A stretch of DNA of 8,082 nt. Origin: Candidatus Desantisbacteria bacterium CG1_02_38_46. Lineage in GTDB: Bacteria > Desantisbacteria > UBA1551 > UBA1559. Below, piece after piece: positions 1-8,082 of this stretch (its first letter is position 1; each line of letters starts with the position of its first letter). The translations under genes were made by a program, and so were the position numbers. The stretch covers positions 1 to 8,082 of the forward strand of contig MNUO01000061.1 of NCBI GenBank assembly GCA_001871015.1, in the 5' to 3' direction. The notes under the pieces are model-generated. The model did no database searches, had not been told where the DNA came from, and was given only the letters and a program-made list of their open reading frames with translations.

Positions 1-236
1 CTTTTGCTGTTAAGAACACTGGAAAGCATAGCAACACCCTGCTCCGTAAATACATAAGGTAAGTATCTAATACCGCCCCATCTTGAGGTTTCAAATTGAA
101 ACCTCAAGTTAGCAAATTCTTCTTTAGTTAATTGAAACATAAAATCATCTGGAAATCTGTCTATATTTCTTTTTACTGCAAGATTAAGTGATTTTGTTTT
201 TACGCCATAAAGTTTACCAAGGTCTCTATCTAACAT
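1..236 (-). CDS. ORF6N-domain protein (phage antirepressor-like), partial at the window edge
   Basis: The minus-strand frame is open through the left edge and gives 78 codons from the ATG at 236. The protein starts [15 protein letters not shown] and continues through [16 protein letters not shown] to [22 protein letters not shown]. These blocks are diagnostic of the ORF6N domain, found in phage antirepressor-type and accessory bacterial proteins and thought to bind DNA. The open frame continues upstream to a TAA at 282-284. Residues LIRG just before the ATG still fit the family, which usually reads IRGxxVMLDxDL, whereas the IVRWLSPG before them does not. A normal member has roughly 15 more N-terminal residues, so the 5' end may be lost or replaced. 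AGAGG (251-247) lies 10 nt before the ATG, and a TTG at 257 is an alternative start. The domain call is firm. Whether the gene is intact is not known. Confidence 0.8.
82..108. repeat. Perfect 13-bp inverted repeat inside the ORF6N coding region
   Basis: CTTGAGGTTTCAA (82-94) is followed by one A and then its exact reverse complement TTGAAACCTCAAG (96-108). It lies in the codons for [10 protein letters not shown], just before the RWGG motif of the ORF6N protein. Palindromy ends at both outer flanks (T81 opposite T109). As RNA or single-stranded DNA it would form a stable hairpin. It might be a recombination or binding site, or a by-product of coding a quasi-symmetric peptide; no function is shown. 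Confidence 0.9.
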
Positions 237-261
237 TGCATTCAGACCTCTAATCAAACCT

Positions 262-459: not shown

Positions 460-2202
460 TCAAAAACTCCGCTTGTTCTTAAAATTATCATAATATTTAA
501 TCATTTCTCTGGAAACAGAAGGAGAAACGATACTAATTGTATCGGATAGAATCTTAAAAGTGATATCACTTTTTTTCTTAAGTGCAGACCTTGCTGCCTC
601 ATTGATGATCATTTCTATATCACTCGCCATATAGTTTTCGGTAGCAGAAGCAAGAGAATTACTTTTTATGTCAGGTGAAGTGGGGCGGCCACTGAGGAAC
701 ATATCAAATAGTGCAGCACGAGCATCATAGTCTGGTGGCGGCACGTAGATCAATTTATCAAACCGTCCTGTACGTAATGCTGCCTGATCTATTCTATCTG
801 GTCGGTTAGTAGTTGCAATTACAACAATACCATCTCTACTACATTCACTTACTTGACTCAGGAACTCATTAACCTCTGACGAATAGTGATGATCTAGTTT
901 ATCACTGCGCTTCGGAATTATCGCATCAATTTCATCAATAAATATTATGGAAGGTGCTTTTTCTCTGGCTCGTTGGAATAATCTTCCAATTTTTTGTTGT
1001 GTGCCGTGAACGTAGGTACTTGCCAAGTCAGATGGCCTGACCTCAATAAATGTATAGTTGATTTCTTCAGATAACTTCTTTGATATAAAGGTTTTACCAC
1101 ATCCAGGAGGTCCGTAAAGAAGAATTCCGTTAGGAAGGGAAATCCTATATTTGTTATACAAATCTTTTTGTTGTAAGGGCAGAATAATTTCAGAATAGAG
1201 CAGTTCCTTGAGCTCCTCCATACCAGCAACACCAGAGAAACCACTTCCTTCCTTAATTTTTTTAATTGCTTCGGGTTCACGCATATCTGTCTTTTGAATT
1301 ATTGGTCTCTTATCCCTGTTTTCATAATCAAGCAAAGCACTCAAAAATTCCGTACCGTCCTTAAATCGCTGTGATTGGTCATCTTGAATGGCTTTCAAAA
1401 TTATTTCATCTAATTGACTGTCACATTGGTCATTAATAAATGACGGTTTCTGAGGCTTTTGTTTTCTTGCTTTAAGGACTGCAATCTCCATCGCATCTAT
1501 ATCGTCTTCAGCTCCGGTAAGATCGTAAGTCCACGGAGCAATTCCTGTCACCATTTGATAGAACACAATACCTGCTGAAAATACATCGCTCGCTGGAGTG
1601 TGGAAACCCCAGGGGCTTTCCGGTGGTAGATAGGTAACAGTACCGGCTGCGCCAGTCATGCGAGTTTTTGGGTCTACTGCTTTAGCGACTCCAAAGTCTG
1701 AAACTTTTCCAGTTGGCATTGATGTGTCATAGGAAAGGAGAACATTTTGCGGTTTTATGTCTCGGTGAATTACTGGAGGCTCCTGTCTATGTGCAACTGA
1801 GAGCCCGGCACAGATATCTCTCTGAATAGAAAGAGCAAGTGGAAGTGCAATTCTAATCTTCCTTTTTAGCAATTGGAATAAAGTTTCACCAGACACATAC
1901 TCCATAGAGATAAAAAACAATTCCTTGTCATCCTTTTTGAAGGAATTTGCTTCAAAAACTCTGACTACATTGGGGTGAGTTATATGAGAAAGAATCGTAG
2001 CTTCTGAAATAAAATTTGACTGTTCTTCTCTTTTAAAAACATCTGGTTTTAAGACCTTTAGAGCCTGCAAGCCTAAAAATTTATGTTTGACTCGGTAGAC
2101 CTCAGCAAAGGCACCTGCACCAATGAAGCAATCAATAGTGTATGTGTCCTTGATTACTTCACCCGCAGTAAGTAATGCATTCTGGGGAATTTTTCGACTC
2201 AT
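460..2202 (-). CDS. Ser/Thr protein kinase fused to a Cdc48/FtsH-class AAA ATPase
   Basis: 580 aa, cytosolic, with no signal peptide or TM segment. Residues about 20-290 are a Hanks-type kinase: Gly-rich loop GAGAFAEV (28-35), ATP lysine K49, helix-C glutamate E67, catalytic loop HRDIKPQN (146-153, D148), DFG (169-171) and a PPE version of the APE motif (193-195). T183, T188 and T190 lie in the activation loop. All key residues are present, so it should be active. Residues about 320-560 are an AAA module: Walker A GPPGCGKT (364-371), Walker B IIFIDEID (419-426), sensor-1 TTNRPD (464-469) and arginine-finger motif RTGRFD (477-482), the layout of Cdc48/FtsH-type unfoldases. There is no FtsH protease part, so it likely remodels or unfolds its target. 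The ATG overlaps the Hsp70 stop (ATGA) and has no clear Shine-Dalgarno site, suggesting translational coupling. Substrates are unknown. Confidence 0.93.
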   Translation of the reverse strand: MSRKIPQNALLTAGEVIKDTYTIDCFIGAGAFAEVYRVKHKFLGLQALKVLKPDVFKREEQSNFISEATILSHITHPNVVRVFEANSFKKDDKELFFISMEYVSGETLFQLLKRKIRIALPLALSIQRDICAGLSVAHRQEPPVIHRDIKPQNVLLSYDTSMPTGKVSDFGVAKAVDPKTRMTGAAGTVTYLPPESPWGFHTPASDVFSAGIVFYQMVTGIAPWTYDLTGAEDDIDAMEIAVLKARKQKPQKPSFINDQCDSQLDEIILKAIQDDQSQRFKDGTEFLSALLDYENRDKRPIIQKTDMREPEAIKKIKEGSGFSGVAGMEELKELLYSEIILPLQQKDLYNKYRISLPNGILLYGPPGCGKTFISKKLSEEINYTFIEVRPSDLASTYVHGTQQKIGRLFQRAREKAPSIIFIDEIDAIIPKRSDKLDHHYSSEVNEFLSQVSECSRDGIVVIATTNRPDRIDQAALRTGRFDKLIYVPPPDYDARAALFDMFLSGRPTSPDIKSNSLASATENYMASDIEMIINEAARSALKKKSDITFKILSDTISIVSPSVSREMIKYYDNFKNKRSF

Positions 2203-4715
2203 AGTTTAGGTATGTAAATTGGGATATCGGTCCTTGGTACTTTCGTCTTTTCTTGATCTGCTTTGGGCATGAGGCCCCAAAGCTCGAAGACAATGTTCTT
2301 AATCTCATCAGAAAATTGGCCACTTGCGAGTAAGGAGCTCCCCTTATCGACAAGATCTCTGGCTTTTGACCGATCACTCCATTGAATTTCATCAAATGAT
2401 TCATTTATATTGGTTAATACAGAAACCCAATATTCTTTTCGCTGAAATAAGATGTTCAATTTTAGCTGGAGTAGTTTATCCTTCACATCCTTTGCACGCT
2501 TGACATTCTTTAATTCAATTGCTTTTTCAATCTCCGGTTTTAATTGCGATAGAATCTGCTTCGCTTTATCGTCTCCAAATCTGTCAACAACCTGTTCCGT
2601 TGCTTTCAATTCTTCGGTAAGTTCATTTTCAACCTGTGGCCAGTTTATACTTCTCTCAATTCCATCTATTTTTACAGCAATTTCATTTAGCCTCTTCTGA
2701 ACCTCTCTGCTCCGGTCTTTGTCACCGCGCCCCTTTTCATTTAGGTCATCAATTTCTATCAAACTCTTTTCTATTTCAGTCGGCTTAGGCCCAGCGAACT
2801 CTCCAACTTGTTGAATCTTATTCTGTATGTCATCTAACCTTGTTTTTTCATCTTCAATTTGGTGGGCGAGTTCGTCTGTGCTTACAGCAGAAAGTGTGTA
2901 ATCCGGGTCCATGACTTTTTCTATGGTTTTATCCAAATATGGCAGGTAAGCACTCGTCTTGACTCTCCGTGATTCATCTATTCTAATTGTTACCGTTACT
3001 TCACTTCTTTCGGGCAATAAAGATGACAACATATCTCCAGAAATTCTTATCTCATTCATATAGGTATTTCTGATAGGTTTTGTTCCCCCTTTCCCCTCCC
3101 AAACGACGATTTTCAAGACATCTGAACTATTGCCTGGTCGTAATTTCTTTGGGGCAAAGAAAGTTTTCTTGCTGACAATAGGTAGGGAAGTTCCTTTTGT
3201 CAGTATAGGCACTATCAATTCTTCCTCCTCCGCTCCTATTACAGTAGCAGAAATTCCAATATCGTGTGGTAGAGGAGGCTGTGCTATTTTAATCCCTTGC
3301 AAAATAGAAATAGAATTCGGTTCACATGCCAATCTGTTACCTGTTTCATCGAAAAGCTCAACTGAGAAACCATTCGTCGTGTTTTCTATTAAATGGAGAC
3401 GCACCACCAAAACGGCACCACCTTCAAGTTCAATTTTGCCCGTTGTCCAATCCTTATCATTTCTTGTTACTACTGCAAAAACTTTTGAAGGAACAGTGCC
3501 CTTGGTCTTTTCCTTATCAACCTTAATCCCAAACGTTAACTCTGTCTCTGCTGTTGTATCAGGATAGCCCAATATCAACTGTATCTTTGAATAATCCCGT
3601 GGTTGTTTCTCAACCGGAATTGGCTTCGTTGAAGCAAATATAGCAGCTCCTTGTGCAACCACAGTCATAGGGTCAATCGTTACATTTATGTTCTTATATA
3701 ATTCGTTTTTTACTTTTTCTCTTAACAAGGGGATATAAGTGGGACCACCAACCATCAGGACTGTCATTAAATCGGAAGAGGGCAACCTATTCCTTGTTAA
3801 TAATTCTTTGCAAATACTTATTGCTCCATCAATTAGTGGAGAAATAAGTTGTTCAAATTCTGAGCGGTTAATACTAATTGCAGTATCTATCTTGTTCCCA
3901 TTGTCATCCTCACATACTGACTCTTCCTCTATGATGTAAAAGGCTCTATCCGACAATGTAATCTTTGCTTCTTCAGCATAACGCTTCCAAGCCCAACGCA
4001 AGTCCAGACGGCGGTCGTCGTCATTAACTATTGCTTCAATTGAGAAGTTTTCTTCTAAATGGGGTATAATTTTTTCATCAACTATTAACCAATCCATGTT
4101 TTTACCACCAAGATAGTTATCTCCGGCATGGTCAATAACCTTCATAATTCCTTCTTCCATTCCGACAAGAGCCGCATCAAATGTTCCACCTCCAAAATCA
4201 AAAACCAACCATATTCCTTCAATGTTTTTTTTATCATATAGAAAAGCCAACGATGCAGCTATAGGTTCCTGTAACAATTGAAAGTATTCAAAACCCGCTA
4301 ATTCAGCGGCTCTACGAGTGGCTTCTATTTGAACCTGGTCAAAGGCGGCAGGAACAGTAATCACAACTGATGAGAATTCTTCATCTTTGACTGCTCGTTT
4401 TAGTTGCTTTAATATCTCTGCAGATAATTCCTCCGGGGTATAAGACTTGTCCATGTGAGTAGAATGATAAATATCATCTGAGCCCATTGCTCTTTTGAAT
4501 TCAATAAAAGTGTTTTCTTTATCCTTGGATATTGCATTATATGCCATGTCCCCAACCAACATCTGCCTCCTTTTGGTAAAATGCACACAGGAGGGCAAAA
4601 TTTCCTTGTTGCGCGGTCCATGACGAAAGATTGTTATTCTTCCGTTGTCCATACGGGCGATTTCTGAATTAGTAGTGCCCAAGTCTATTCCATAATCAAT
4701 TTTTTGTCTTGCCAT
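2199..4715 (-). CDS. Divergent Hsp70 (DnaK-like) chaperone with an extra insert and a long helical tail
   Basis: 838 aa against about 640 for DnaK. The nucleotide-binding domain (about 1-365) looks functional: phosphate-1 loop IDLGTTNS (10-17), catalytic lysine candidate K74 in EFKRAMG, VPAAFDQVQ (121-129), QEPIAAS (149-155), phosphate-2 loop FDFGGGTFD (172-180), GDNYLGGKNMD (198-208), adenosine motif MVGGPTYIP (321-329) and QGAAIFA (355-361). The DVTPLSLGIE-like start of the substrate-binding beta domain appears only near 482 (LPHDIGISA), followed by LPIVSKKTFF, so about 110 residues are inserted after the NBD. Residues about 600-838 are charged and helical, replacing and exceeding the DnaK lid, with no EEVD-type tail. 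It should be an ATP-driven chaperone or adaptor working with the two upstream proteins. It lies 14 nt after the GrpE-like gene and overlaps the kinase-AAA gene by 4 nt. The length and insert argue against it being the housekeeping dnaK. Confidence 0.95.
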   Translation of the reverse strand: MARQKIDYGIDLGTTNSEIARMDNGRITIFRHGPRNKEILPSCVHFTKRRQMLVGDMAYNAISKDKENTFIEFKRAMGSDDIYHSTHMDKSYTPEELSAEILKQLKRAVKDEEFSSVVITVPAAFDQVQIEATRRAAELAGFEYFQLLQEPIAASLAFLYDKKNIEGIWLVFDFGGGTFDAALVGMEEGIMKVIDHAGDNYLGGKNMDWLIVDEKIIPHLEENFSIEAIVNDDDRRLDLRWAWKRYAEEAKITLSDRAFYIIEEESVCEDDNGNKIDTAISINRSEFEQLISPLIDGAISICKELLTRNRLPSSDLMTVLMVGGPTYIPLLREKVKNELYKNINVTIDPMTVVAQGAAIFASTKPIPVEKQPRDYSKIQLILGYPDTTAETELTFGIKVDKEKTKGTVPSKVFAVVTRNDKDWTTGKIELEGGAVLVVRLHLIENTTNGFSVELFDETGNRLACEPNSISILQGIKIAQPPLPHDIGISATVIGAEEEELIVPILTKGTSLPIVSKKTFFAPKKLRPGNSSDVLKIVVWEGKGGTKPIRNTYMNEIRISGDMLSSLLPERSEVTVTIRIDESRRVKTSAYLPYLDKTIEKVMDPDYTLSAVSTDELAHQIEDEKTRLDDIQNKIQQVGEFAGPKPTEIEKSLIEIDDLNEKGRGDKDRSREVQKRLNEIAVKIDGIERSINWPQVENELTEELKATEQVVDRFGDDKAKQILSQLKPEIEKAIELKNVKRAKDVKDKLLQLKLNILFQRKEYWVSVLTNINESFDEIQWSDRSKARDLVDKGSSLLASGQFSDEIKNIVFELWGLMPKADQEKTKVPRTDIPIYIPKL

Positions 4716-4719
4716 TTTT

Positions 4720-4726
4720 CCTCCTC
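4720..4726 (-). promoter_or_regulatory. Strong ribosome binding site of the Hsp70 gene
   Basis: The minus strand reads GAGGAGG, then AAAA, then the ATG at 4715. This is a near-perfect anti-16S match inside the 14-nt gap after the GrpE-like gene. It is the strongest such site in the operon, so the Hsp70 is probably translated more than its neighbours. Confidence 0.85.
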
Positions 4727-4729
4727 TTA

Positions 4730-5620
4730 TTAAGGTTGTTTCATATTTTTAGATGATATAGAAAGCTCTGCTTCTCCATGGCTCACTGCAACACCGTTGT
4801 GGAAAATTTGTGGTGTGATCATTCTTGAGATAATTTCTTCTCCGGGTTCAAGGTCATCTCTTCTAATAGTGTTAGTAATTTTAACCGTTAGTTCATCTAC
4901 ATATGACTGTCCTGTGAGGTCTTTTATTGTATATCCCTGCCGATTAAATTCATCCTCTAAACGAGTTAAAGCATTCTTTAATGCGTGTATCCCCTTTGTA
5001 TTTTCATCCATATGCTTGATTCTTTTCCGCATTCTAAAAATTTCATTACCTACCGATACTGGCAAGGAATGGTCAATTTCTGTTTCTGGTAGCTTTTTTC
5101 CAACTGCTTCTTTCTTCAGAAGAACTAATTGGTTTTCAAGCATCTCGCTTACCTTGGCATCAATCTTAATGCTTTCCTCAACAACATTGACCTTCTTGAA
5201 CTTCTTCTGAAACACTACTATTATCACAATAATTATCAATAATGTAAATAGAATTGATAAGCTAACTACAAGAAATTTGGTTAACGTATCTTTTTTAATA
5301 CTTGTTATTTCTTTGTCCGTCTTTTGATTTAAGTCAGTCATAATATCTTTTAATGTATTCTGTTCAGTGCTAAGTGAGTTAAGTTTGTTGGTCAGGCTTT
5401 GAAATTGGTTTTTAATGGCTACTTGGTTTTCTGAGAGGTTCTTAAATTCCGCCTGCATCGTCTTTGTAATATCAGCTATTGATGAGCTTACACTATCTAT
5501 TCTAATTTCAAGTTTCTCTATCTTGGATTTATCTTTAAGAGCATTTTGAGTTTGACTATAACCAATCGTACTTAATAGACATAGAAAAAATATGGCTACT
5601 TTTAGTTGTATCTTTTTCAT
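4730..5620 (-). CDS. Membrane-anchored coiled-coil protein with a GrpE-like cytoplasmic C-terminus
   Basis: 296 aa. Residues 1-22 look like a Sec signal peptide: basic MKK, a hydrophobic core, and an end at GYSQ. Residues about 28-112 are a charged, heptad-like segment, probably periplasmic coiled coil. A TM helix spans about 115-137 and is followed by QKKFKK, so the positive-inside rule puts the C-terminus in the cytoplasm. A second coiled coil (about 145-228) leads into a small C-terminal domain: LTGQSY (235-240), acidic RRDDLEPGEEI (253-263), ITPQIFHNG (268-276) and GEAELSIS (282-289). The order of coil, G-Q/E-x-Y/F-D, PG, NG and a closing beta strand parallels GrpE, the DnaK nucleotide exchange factor. 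With an Hsp70 next door, exchange-factor or Hsp70-tethering activity is plausible but inferred. The start is 2 nt after the previous stop, and GGAG lies 10 nt upstream within the preceding gene. Confidence 0.85.
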   Translation of the reverse strand: MKKIQLKVAIFFLCLLSTIGYSQTQNALKDKSKIEKLEIRIDSVSSSIADITKTMQAEFKNLSENQVAIKNQFQSLTNKLNSLSTEQNTLKDIMTDLNQKTDKEITSIKKDTLTKFLVVSLSILFTLLIIIVIIVVFQKKFKKVNVVEESIKIDAKVSEMLENQLVLLKKEAVGKKLPETEIDHSLPVSVGNEIFRMRKRIKHMDENTKGIHALKNALTRLEDEFNRQGYTIKDLTGQSYVDELTVKITNTIRRDDLEPGEEIISRMITPQIFHNGVAVSHGEAELSISSKNMKQP

Positions 5621-5622
5621 TC

Positions 5623-7386
5623 TTATTTAGCTCCAATTAAGCGATTATATCGGTTAATATCAGCATCGATTACATCAAAAAGCCGATTATATTCGGCATA
5701 CCTTGTTTGGTAATTCTCAACAACCTGAACAAGAGCATTGTAATTATCAATATTGCTATGGTAGGTAACTTCATTTACATATAGTCCTTGTCGCAATTTT
5801 CTTTCTGCATCGTCAATATCTTCTTTAAGCCTTTTTAATTGATTGTCATAACCCTCAAGAGTATTTCTCAACGATGCAAGTTCGGACTCCATTTTAGTTA
5901 GTCGCATTTTATCCTCATCAATTTTCTGCTTCAGGGCACCAGCCTCTTGAGATTTTGGCCCTGTTTCGTAGGAACTTGAATAAGAGACAGAACTTGGTGG
6001 TGTGTATGTCCCGGATGAGTAGTTGTTAGAATCTGTTCCTAAAAAAAGCCTAAGCATTCCCAGTAATAGCAAAATTCCTAAACCTAAGTGCCACTTATCA
6101 AATGTTCTGAAAAGAACTTTTCCCAAGAATCTGTAATAATTGGCGCCCGTCTCAATGACTCGATATCTTCCCAAAGGTATAATGGGAATGCCAAAAAATA
6201 CGAAATACCTTGTGGTCTCATAACAATTTGGTTCAAAATTGTAATTTGAATGTCCATAAAGTGTGGTTCCTATGCCGTATATTGCGCCGAGATGTGGTGC
6301 TTTCTTAATAGGTTCAAGACCTCTCCACATTTTTTCTTGCTTAAGATTCTCTTTGATAACCTTAAAGTTTGTCTCATATCTTTCTTTTAGTAAAAGCCCT
6401 GTAATATAAGTTTCAGCTAATTCATAAATATCCTCACTCTTTTGCCATTGACCAGTCTTGTTAGCATAGTGAATACCGTTATCTAAAATGATCCCACCAA
6501 TTTTATCTCCATAACTTTCTATAAGAAAAGCATTACCGCTTTGTTTGATCTGTTCAAAATATGGGTTTACCTCTTTATAAAACGTCCTTGTCTCAGTGTA
6601 TATCTTCTCATAATTACCTTTATCATCAGTCTCCGAAAAAGCAGTACACATTTTATCTATCTCTTCTGATATAGGATTGGCGTATTTGTCTTTTACAAAT
6701 CCAACAATCTCTTGTGACAAACCACTTTCATTCAAGTATTTAAAAAAACGACCAATTTGGTCTAACTGGTCCGCATTTGCCCATCCTTTAAGAAACTGGT
6801 TTGCTGCTTGGTAAATACTATTACCTATCGATTTAGTAATTTGACTATCGGTGATATTCGTTGATAATTCTACATCAATTTTCTTTATTAGATTGGGTAT
6901 TTTAACAGATGCGATAAGTTCAGCCCAATATTTTATACTGTTTTTAAGATGTTCATAATTAGAGGCAGTTTCTTGGCAAGCTAATATTTGTTCGAGCGTA
7001 ATTAAGTTCTTTTTATGATGGGAATACTTTTGCTGAGTAGCTGCTGACCAAATATCAATCGCTTCCTCAACATTTTTATGTTTTAAACTATTGAGTGCTC
7101 TCTTATCAAACTTATCAATATCCCAAAACCAGGAAATTAAGTGTTCGAGTTTTGTATTTGGATTGTCTATGGATTGCACCGCTTTTCTCACGGATTCAGT
7201 ATTTCGATGGAGTTCTCCTATCCAAGGCAAATCTGAATCATATTGGGGAGTTTGTTCAATTGTAATATAGGTTTGTATCTCTTCTACTCTACAAACAACT
7301 TCCTTCTTTGATGCTGTAACGGGCAAACCCAATATACGAAAGGCATTCTTTATTATTTTACTTTCCACAGTATTAACAGTTATCAA
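5623..7386 (-). CDS. J-like, membrane-anchored coiled-coil protein; first gene of the operon
   Basis: 587 aa. The N-terminus (about 13-88) resembles a degenerate J-type domain found in bacterial membrane proteins: NAFRILGLPVTASKKEV, then ESVRKAVQSIDNPNTKLEHL and ISWFWD. The HPD tripeptide needed to stimulate Hsp70 ATPase is absent. Residues about 95-355 are helical with TPR-like stretches (ALNSLKHKNVEEAIDIW). Residues about 366-425 hold a compact motif region: LGAIYGIGTTLYG, YETTRYFVFFGIPIIPLGRYRV, YYRFLGKV. A TM helix follows (about 432-449), then an S/T/Y-rich linker (452-478), a coiled coil (about 480-532) and a mostly polar helical tail. The start is a TTG with GAGG (7396-7393) 6 nt upstream; no in-frame ATG lies between it and the TAG at 7425-7423, while a GTG six codons downstream is an alternative. 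A co-chaperone or membrane scaffold for the operon's Hsp70 is the likely role, from context and the weak J similarity. Confidence 0.85.
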   Translation of the reverse strand: MITVNTVESKIIKNAFRILGLPVTASKKEVVCRVEEIQTYITIEQTPQYDSDLPWIGELHRNTESVRKAVQSIDNPNTKLEHLISWFWDIDKFDKRALNSLKHKNVEEAIDIWSAATQQKYSHHKKNLITLEQILACQETASNYEHLKNSIKYWAELIASVKIPNLIKKIDVELSTNITDSQITKSIGNSIYQAANQFLKGWANADQLDQIGRFFKYLNESGLSQEIVGFVKDKYANPISEEIDKMCTAFSETDDKGNYEKIYTETRTFYKEVNPYFEQIKQSGNAFLIESYGDKIGGIILDNGIHYANKTGQWQKSEDIYELAETYITGLLLKERYETNFKVIKENLKQEKMWRGLEPIKKAPHLGAIYGIGTTLYGHSNYNFEPNCYETTRYFVFFGIPIIPLGRYRVIETGANYYRFLGKVLFRTFDKWHLGLGILLLLGMLRLFLGTDSNNYSSGTYTPPSSVSYSSSYETGPKSQEAGALKQKIDEDKMRLTKMESELASLRNTLEGYDNQLKRLKEDIDDAERKLRQGLYVNEVTYHSNIDNYNALVQVVENYQTRYAEYNRLFDVIDADINRYNRLIGAK

Positions 7387-7688: not shown

Positions 7689-8082
7689 GGGAATACCGAT
7701 ACCTTAGAACATTTAGCAGTGGAGATGTATGTCAGAGGTTGCTCCACCAGGGATGTAGAAGAGATTCTTAAGGACGAGAATGGCAATCTTCTTCTCTCCA
7801 AAAGCAGTATCAGTGCAAGAAGATGAGAGACTGTGGGATGCCTATGAGGAGTTCTGTAAACAGGATTTGAGCAAGTATAATGTGGTCTACCTCTTTGTTG
7901 ACGCTGTTTATGAAGCAATGAGAATGTACAAGACAACCAAGGAAGGAATCCTTGTTGCCTGGGCAATATTAGAAGATGGAAGAAAGATATTACTGGGAAT
8001 GAAATTGGGAAATAAGGAATCCTATCAGGACTGGTTAGATTTCTTCCGGGACCTTAAGAAACGAGGATTAGTGGATCCTGTC
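7689..8082 (+). pseudogene. IS256 (mutator-type) transposase remnant, frameshifted and cut by the window edge
   Basis: Reading from 7689 gives LEHLAVEMYVRGCSTRDVEEI and then LLLSKSSISAR, the region before the catalytic core of IS256-type transposases. That frame hits TGA at 7824. One frame over, from 7822, the match resumes: DERLWDAYEEFCKQDL, VYLFVDAVYEAMRM, GILVAWAILEDGRK, NKESYQDWLDFFRDLKKRG, open to the window end. The aspartate at 7900-7902 (VDAVYE) is probably the first residue of the DDE triad; the second would lie just past the edge. The net change is one extra base or two missing near 7818-7824. A TAA at 7686-7688 cuts off the N-terminal domain, and the usual 100 or so upstream residues are absent. 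The gene is almost certainly dead here, and it marks accessory DNA. Confidence 0.88.

Follow-up and report, generated by a model that had tools for sequence, protein, structure and literature searches.

A recurrent gene set for Hsp70, GrpE-like, J-like and AAA proteins on mobile DNA: a candidate bacterial chaperone-unfoldase machine

Introduction

Hsp70 cycles rank among the best-understood protein machines, and the locus described here holds a second set of their components. It lies on contig MNUO01000061.1 of Candidatus Desantisbacteria bacterium CG1_02_38_46 (assembly GCA_001871015.1), the whole of which (8,082 bases) is the window analysed. The contig is filled by four genes on the minus strand: J (5623-7386; 587 residues, TTG start, first gene of the operon), coding for a J-like membrane protein; G (4730-5620; 296 residues), for a transmembrane GrpE-like protein; Hsp70 (2199-4715; 838 residues), for a divergent Hsp70; and KA (460-2202; 580 residues), for a Ser/Thr kinase fused to a single classic-clade AAA ATPase. 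J and G are separated by 2 nucleotides (5621-5622) and G and Hsp70 by 14 (4716-4729), while Hsp70 and KA overlap by 4 (2199-2202). Since the host genome also encodes separate canonical DnaK, GrpE and DnaJ proteins, the operon constitutes a second chaperone set.

An earlier interpretation made from the DNA letters alone (the sequence-only reading) had seen in these genes a J protein/GrpE/Hsp70 cycle rebuilt at the membrane, acting together with a phospho-signalling AAA motor on a shared target and perhaps serving in defence. The gene packing that it described agrees with the open reading frames (ORFs), and its divergent Hsp70 and kinase-AAA fusion are borne out by Pfam matches (HSP70 PF00012, 3e-70, covering residues 9-362 only; Pkinase, 8e-44; AAA, 3e-36). 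The main observation reported here is that genes for an Hsp70, its GrpE-like and J-like partners and a single-ring AAA ATPase form a conserved set, which keeps together as a block in several phyla and mobile settings. We interpret it as a chaperone-unfoldase machine that is self-contained and moves horizontally, probably serving in defence against phages or mobile elements, and give this interpretation an even chance of being correct.

Conservation and distribution of the gene set

The sequence-only reading proposed testing whether the gene order is conserved across distant taxa, and rare co-occurrence of the genes had been named beforehand as the observation that would refute it. The order J-G-Hsp70-KA is present in the window and at loci L166, L192, L311, L313, L314 and L317, that is, it recurs in Bacteroidota, in one Verrucomicrobium and on one virus-classed contig. 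Among plasmids searched by tblastn, Haliscomenobacter hydrossis pHALHY02 (L166) carries all four genes in this order, with identities to the window of 24.7% (J), 29.9% (G), 39.3% (Hsp70) and 35.6% (KA). Because the same order recurs in unrelated genomes, the arrangement is not due to chance. No DNA match was found in E. coli genomes.

Searches with whole KA or whole Hsp70 as query returned mostly generic FtsH/Cdc48 proteins, DnaK and kinases, and were replaced by a profile of the Hsp70 C-terminal region. Members were found in 6 of 194 Verrucomicrobiota, 12 of 345 Bacteroidota and 5 of 321 gammaproteobacterial genomes, in 9 of 188 genomes of the myxobacterial phylum and in 1 of 149 genomes of a Firmicutes phylum. 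Presence is thus patchy, in 0.7-5% of the genomes of each group, and extends across phyla. Far from co-occurring rarely, the genes travel together: G lies directly upstream of Hsp70 at 31 of 40 Hsp70-family loci and an AAA gene directly downstream at 18 of 40, the kinase-AAA form accounting for 8 of 40. In the 345 Bacteroidota genomes there are four full-length KA proteins (E<1e-240), all four encoded directly behind this Hsp70; the next-best match (7e-75) is to the AAA part only.

In the phylogenetic tree all kinase-AAA loci form one clade (support 100/99), which draws its members from the phylum of the window, from Bacteroidota, from a Verrucomicrobium and from a virus-classed contig. Gammaproteobacteria, Bacteroidota and Verrucomicrobiota occur side by side in the AAA-only branch, together with a Firmicute and a myxobacterium. 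The mixing of phyla, with gammaproteobacterial L326 as a close sister of Bacteroidota L315, argues for horizontal transfer. Among the myxobacterial Hsp70 relatives, L332-L337 have no G, and the ORF immediately downstream of Hsp70 is J-like.

Features of the four proteins

All domains below are encoded on the minus strand. The nucleotide-binding domain (NBD) of Hsp70 (residues 1-362; 3630-4715) is the part matched by PF00012, and its phosphate-1, phosphate-2 and adenosine loops (GIDLGTTNS, GGGTFD and GGPT) are conserved; Asn stands at the position which, from the alignment, we take to be that of DnaK T199. The short conserved linker that would join the NBD directly to the substrate-binding domain (SBD) is absent, and its place is taken by an inserted domain of beta strands (residues 368-460; 3336-3614). 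This insertion is a signature of the family: it is found, with a length of ~90-120 residues, in 30 out of 30 aligned relatives, its strands appear in the AlphaFold model, and it has no match by sequence in the PDB. The beta part of the SBD follows (residues 485-602; 2910-3263), with eight strands in the AlphaFold model. When a profile of this domain (28 relatives, window residues 488-612) was compared with the PDB, the Hsc70/DnaK SBD came out best (E 5e-8) and the 60 best-ranked matches were all Hsp70-type entries. The AlphaFold model, which matches DnaK structures, predicts a long C-terminal helical region in place of the usual lid (residues 613-824; 2244-2879). Judged from these motifs and matches, Hsp70 retains its ATPase core and its substrate-binding domain.

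The AAA domain of KA (553-1239) has Walker A (GPPGCGKT), Walker B (IIFIDE) and conserved TGR arginines, and no protease domain; Walker A, Walker B and the arginine motif are invariant columns across 8 aligned KA/AAA proteins. The kinase domain (1318-2145, identified by Pfam and by its motifs in the alignment) is much less constant. HRD and DFG are intact in the window, L317 and L007, as is the catalytic Lys in the window and L317, but HRD is lost (HNE, FNS or HKS) in L166, L313, L314, L192 and L324, and the whole kinase is missing from the AAA-only branch. The kinase of the window itself therefore looks active, in keeping with the phospho-signalling motor of the sequence-only reading, although that description does not extend to most fused relatives. 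As the kinase is degenerate in most of these and absent from the AAA-only branch, we concluded that the conserved function is that of the AAA motor and not phosphorylation, the kinase probably acting as a regulatory or docking domain. Elsewhere in the host genome, apart from the window, contig C80 carries, at about 6009-8668, a gene for a double AAA protein of Cdc48 type and, nearby, a J-domain ORF.

Neither G nor J reaches its own Pfam family, and their identities, as given by the sequence-only reading, hold at the level of profiles. For G, comparison of the family with 23 canonical GrpE proteins gave an hhalign E of 1.8e-9 (96%; negative control, 0.59), and among all ORFs the G family profile picked two canonical GrpE proteins. 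Pfam gave no match above cut-off for G, PF01025 reaching only the canonical GrpE of the host (C106) in its genome; against PDB sequences, the G profile ranked UBE2K (E 0.01) before GrpE (just 0.046). The profile-profile comparison strongly supports GrpE homology of G. The protein begins with a signal-like segment (residues 1-22; 5555-5620; hydropathy), similar to the N-termini in L166, L313, L314 and L317. Between this segment and a transmembrane (TM) helix (residues 118-138; 5207-5269; hydropathy 3.35) lies a coiled coil predicted from its sequence and position to be extracytoplasmic (residues 25-115; 5276-5548), and the GrpE-like domain, recognized by hhalign and the family profile, comes last (residues 178-290; 4751-5089). 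Since basic residues follow the TM helix, the C-terminus is probably cytosolic. The same layout (signal-like N-terminus, coiled coil of ~95 residues, one TM helix, GrpE-like domain) is shared by the window, L166, L313, L314 and L317; the exceptions in the kinase-AAA clade are L311, which has no clear signal segment, and L192, which has a short soluble form.

For J, the evidence is of the same kind and less strong. The family aligned with canonical J domains at an hhalign E of 2.4e-5 (76%; negative control, 0.08), through a J-domain-like segment (residues 14-90; 7117-7347) that is not matched by PF00226; this family does not reach the window in a search of its own genome, nor does J match any specific Pfam family above cut-off. 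The HPD motif is absent from the window J and from aligned long-type relatives. AlphaFold, run on 5 sequences, gave a mean-confidence score (pLDDT) of 57, too weak for the fold to be judged, with about 80 in the long helices or coiled coil of the C-terminal part (residues 477-585; 5632-5958), where generic coiled-coil Pfam matches are also found. J-domain homology of J is thus moderately supported. A TM helix is predicted by hydropathy (residues 433-451; 6034-6090) and, with that of G, agrees with the membrane anchoring proposed earlier. The canonical J-driven cycle of the sequence-only reading is not supported as it was put, HPD being missing; what is supported is a dedicated chaperone set with an AAA motor.

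Genomic setting

The operons are found on plasmids, one of them in a Tn7-like transposon on a Shewanella plasmid, and conjugative-element-like genes, read by eye, lie next to L326. At 5 of 17 AAA-linked loci the flanks contain hallmark defence genes, against 0 of 18 control windows taken from the same genome set (one-sided Fisher about 0.02, calculated by hand): BREX (L166), type I restriction-modification (RM) with ThsB (L313), ThsB-TIR (L315), NACHT/PDC-S60 (L317) and Cas3 with Cas8e (L327). One of the 17, L318, has Hsp70 and a J-like gene and no AAA gene within the stretch examined. On pHALHY02 a TerB-domain gene and then BREX genes stand on one side of the operon, with a SIR2 gene on the other. 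At L315 (6566-7501), a ThsB-type TIR gene and a PDC-M50A membrane gene directly precede G-Hsp70-AAA on the same strand.

A PADLOC scan (E<=1e-15) matched 101 families in the 123 flank proteins of the 17 AAA- or KA-linked loci, many of them overlapping models that match the same few proteins, versus 5 and 6 families in 122 and 119 control proteins. The control matches (RtcR, mad2/3, ShosA, PsyrA, capP and a transporter) are taken to be generic domain matches. Within the operon itself, PADLOC matched the AAA half of KA to IetA (4e-34) and the kinase half to PD-T4-6 (4e-57) and also MAD6; it has no model for the Hsp70.

At the window, both contig ends are broken mobile-type genes lying outside the system: a truncated ORF6N-domain gene (3-251, minus strand; Pfam 1e-31) and a frameshifted fragment of a Mutator-family transposase (about 7705-8082, plus strand; Pfam 2e-14). 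The damaged mobile DNA described by the sequence-only reading is therefore present. The source is a metagenome bin (1.73 Mb, 88% complete) from a sparsely sampled phylum. Misbinning of the contig was considered. The G+C content of the window (0.376) and its tetranucleotide distance (15.0) are at the edge of the values for contigs of the bin (distance 6.5-14.4), while the foreign stretches compared have larger distances (18-52), which makes the bin assignment plausible.

Possible role and alternatives

DnaK hands its clients to ClpB, and a comparable relay can be proposed for the operon. The J-like protein would recruit Hsp70 to the inner membrane, to a site or client there, Hsp70 would clamp clients through its conserved substrate domain and the GrpE-like domain of G would reset it. 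The client would then be passed to the AAA ring for unfolding, as from DnaK to ClpB, with the kinase or pseudokinase domain regulating or docking the ring. In the kinase-AAA clade, where the GrpE-like domain would hang from an external coiled coil, nucleotide exchange could be gated by events at the envelope, for example phage attack. That immunity can guard the state of a chaperone has a precedent in bNACHT25, which senses phage through DnaJ (PMC12169576). A fuller version of the idea is that of an immune class built on a dedicated Hsp70 cycle, in which a transmembrane GrpE-like receptor senses an envelope event outside the cell and resets a specialised Hsp70 inside it, which passes phage proteins on to an AAA unfoldase gated by a kinase or pseudokinase; this we put forward tentatively, as possible and on balance doubtful.

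Several points weigh against the mobile anti-phage machine proposed here. The handover from Hsp70 to the AAA ring is drawn by analogy only, and the shared target on which the sequence-only reading has the motor act as an effector is hypothetical. Stimulation of Hsp70 by J is not assured, because HPD is missing; J might either just target Hsp70 or leave its stimulation to the host DnaJ. The core genes encode no obvious effector of toxin, nuclease or protease type, and no defence gene lies within the short flanks of the window. The enrichment of defence genes is a small-sample result, resting on 17 loci (5 versus 0). Finally, some Bacteroidota Hsp70-G pairs without AAA adjoin GldM and GldK-like (gldKLMN-type) gliding genes in chromosomes: at L319 and L321 (around 9200-16628) the pair is directly downstream of such genes, with neither AAA nor J. 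The wider Hsp70 family is therefore not purely defensive: the frequent setting in defence islands and mobile DNA agrees with the sequence-only reading, but some Hsp70 relatives are plain chromosomal genes.

The gliding neighbours lead to the strongest alternative, namely a housekeeping chaperone, specialised for an envelope or secretion complex and spread by horizontal transfer, whose defence neighbours are incidental since accessory genes cluster. It is in keeping with G and J being membrane proteins and with the peptidoglycan-binding protein of the Shewanella set, but fits poorly with the patchy presence, with carriage by plasmids, a Tn7-like element and a prophage, and with defence-gene flanks of which control windows have none; moreover, the gld-linked members are those without AAA and J. 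We regard it as unlikely. As to envelope genes, the AAA-only operons L170 (12932-14377) and L325 (12139-18818) include further shared membrane/envelope genes, the peptidoglycan-binding protein being in L170.

The operon might instead serve the mobile element or phage that carries it, by folding its proteins or countering host defences. In L192 (3128-14058), on a virus-classed contig, the operon is complete, includes a second J-like protein and one extra gene, and has a portal-like gene downstream; L193, also on a virus-classed contig, carries an integrase, and L314 adjoins an integrase and a Sak4-like gene. However, plasmids and chromosomal islands carry the set too, next to BREX, RM, Thoeris-like and CRISPR genes, and at these sites it is not accompanied by any shared element gene; this explanation appears improbable. 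More improbable still is a Ter-like stress-signalling module with the kinase as main output and chaperones that tune it: TerB-domain proteins do follow KA in L166 and L324 (with a similar protein in L313 and L314) and Hsp70 in L316, and a few kinases are intact as described, but most fused kinases are degenerate, the AAA-only branch has none and the window has no TerB.

If the chaperone-unfoldase machine is indeed defensive, protein unfolding by a chaperone relay would be a bacterial immune strategy, and the operon a compact model in which it could be tested; if it is not, it would represent a widespread specialised chaperone machine. Tethering a GrpE-like domain across the membrane to a coiled coil on the outside would be a novel mode of Hsp70 control.

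Comparison with known systems

Among described systems, the HSP70-GrpE-DnaJ theme of the predicted DO-GTPase/GAP1-N2 conflict systems (Kaur et al. 2020, PMC7159879) comes closest. Like the operon, it combines genes for HSP70 and GrpE with membrane-linked parts, and it includes a DnaJ- or TPR-fused protein. Those systems, however, are centred on DO-GTPases, GAP1 and FNIII repeats, whereas the window has four genes only; DO-GTPase, GAP1 and FNIII are absent, and the Pfam matches of the four include neither a GTPase nor FNIII. They also have canonical GrpE and DnaJ, lack a kinase-AAA fusion and occur mainly in actinobacteria and firmicutes.

CnuD and CnuCD of the CoCoNuT systems (PMC11090510) likewise include an Hsp70 NBD/SBD protein in defence operons, but one with degenerate Walker-A-like motifs and alongside McrBC GTPases and RNases; the ATPase loops of the operon Hsp70 are intact and there is no McrB or McrC in the window. 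IetAS, PD-T4-6 and MAD6 (PADLOC) resemble the operon through the AAA half of KA (IetA) and its kinase half (PD-T4-6 and MAD6), with matches that are generic at the domain level, and the IetS protease is absent from the operon.

The cellular DnaK-DnaJ-GrpE cycle with ClpB offers the same combination of Hsp70, nucleotide exchange factor, J partner and AAA motor, and the same NBD and SBD-beta folds. The operon departs from it in the extra beta domain and long helical tail of its Hsp70, in a transmembrane GrpE-like protein and an HPD-less J-like protein, and in a motor that is a single classic-clade AAA ring (Cdc48/FtsH/PAN-like) and not a Clp double ring.

In agreement with the sequence-only reading, which knew of no named system with this set, none was found in PADLOC or described in the searchable literature (subscription journals and preprints being mostly outside its coverage). 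As far as that literature shows, a second full Hsp70, GrpE-like, J-like and AAA set on mobile DNA is undescribed. The operon may thus be a chaperone-based conflict or chaperone machine of a new form, with a real chance of deserving a class of its own.

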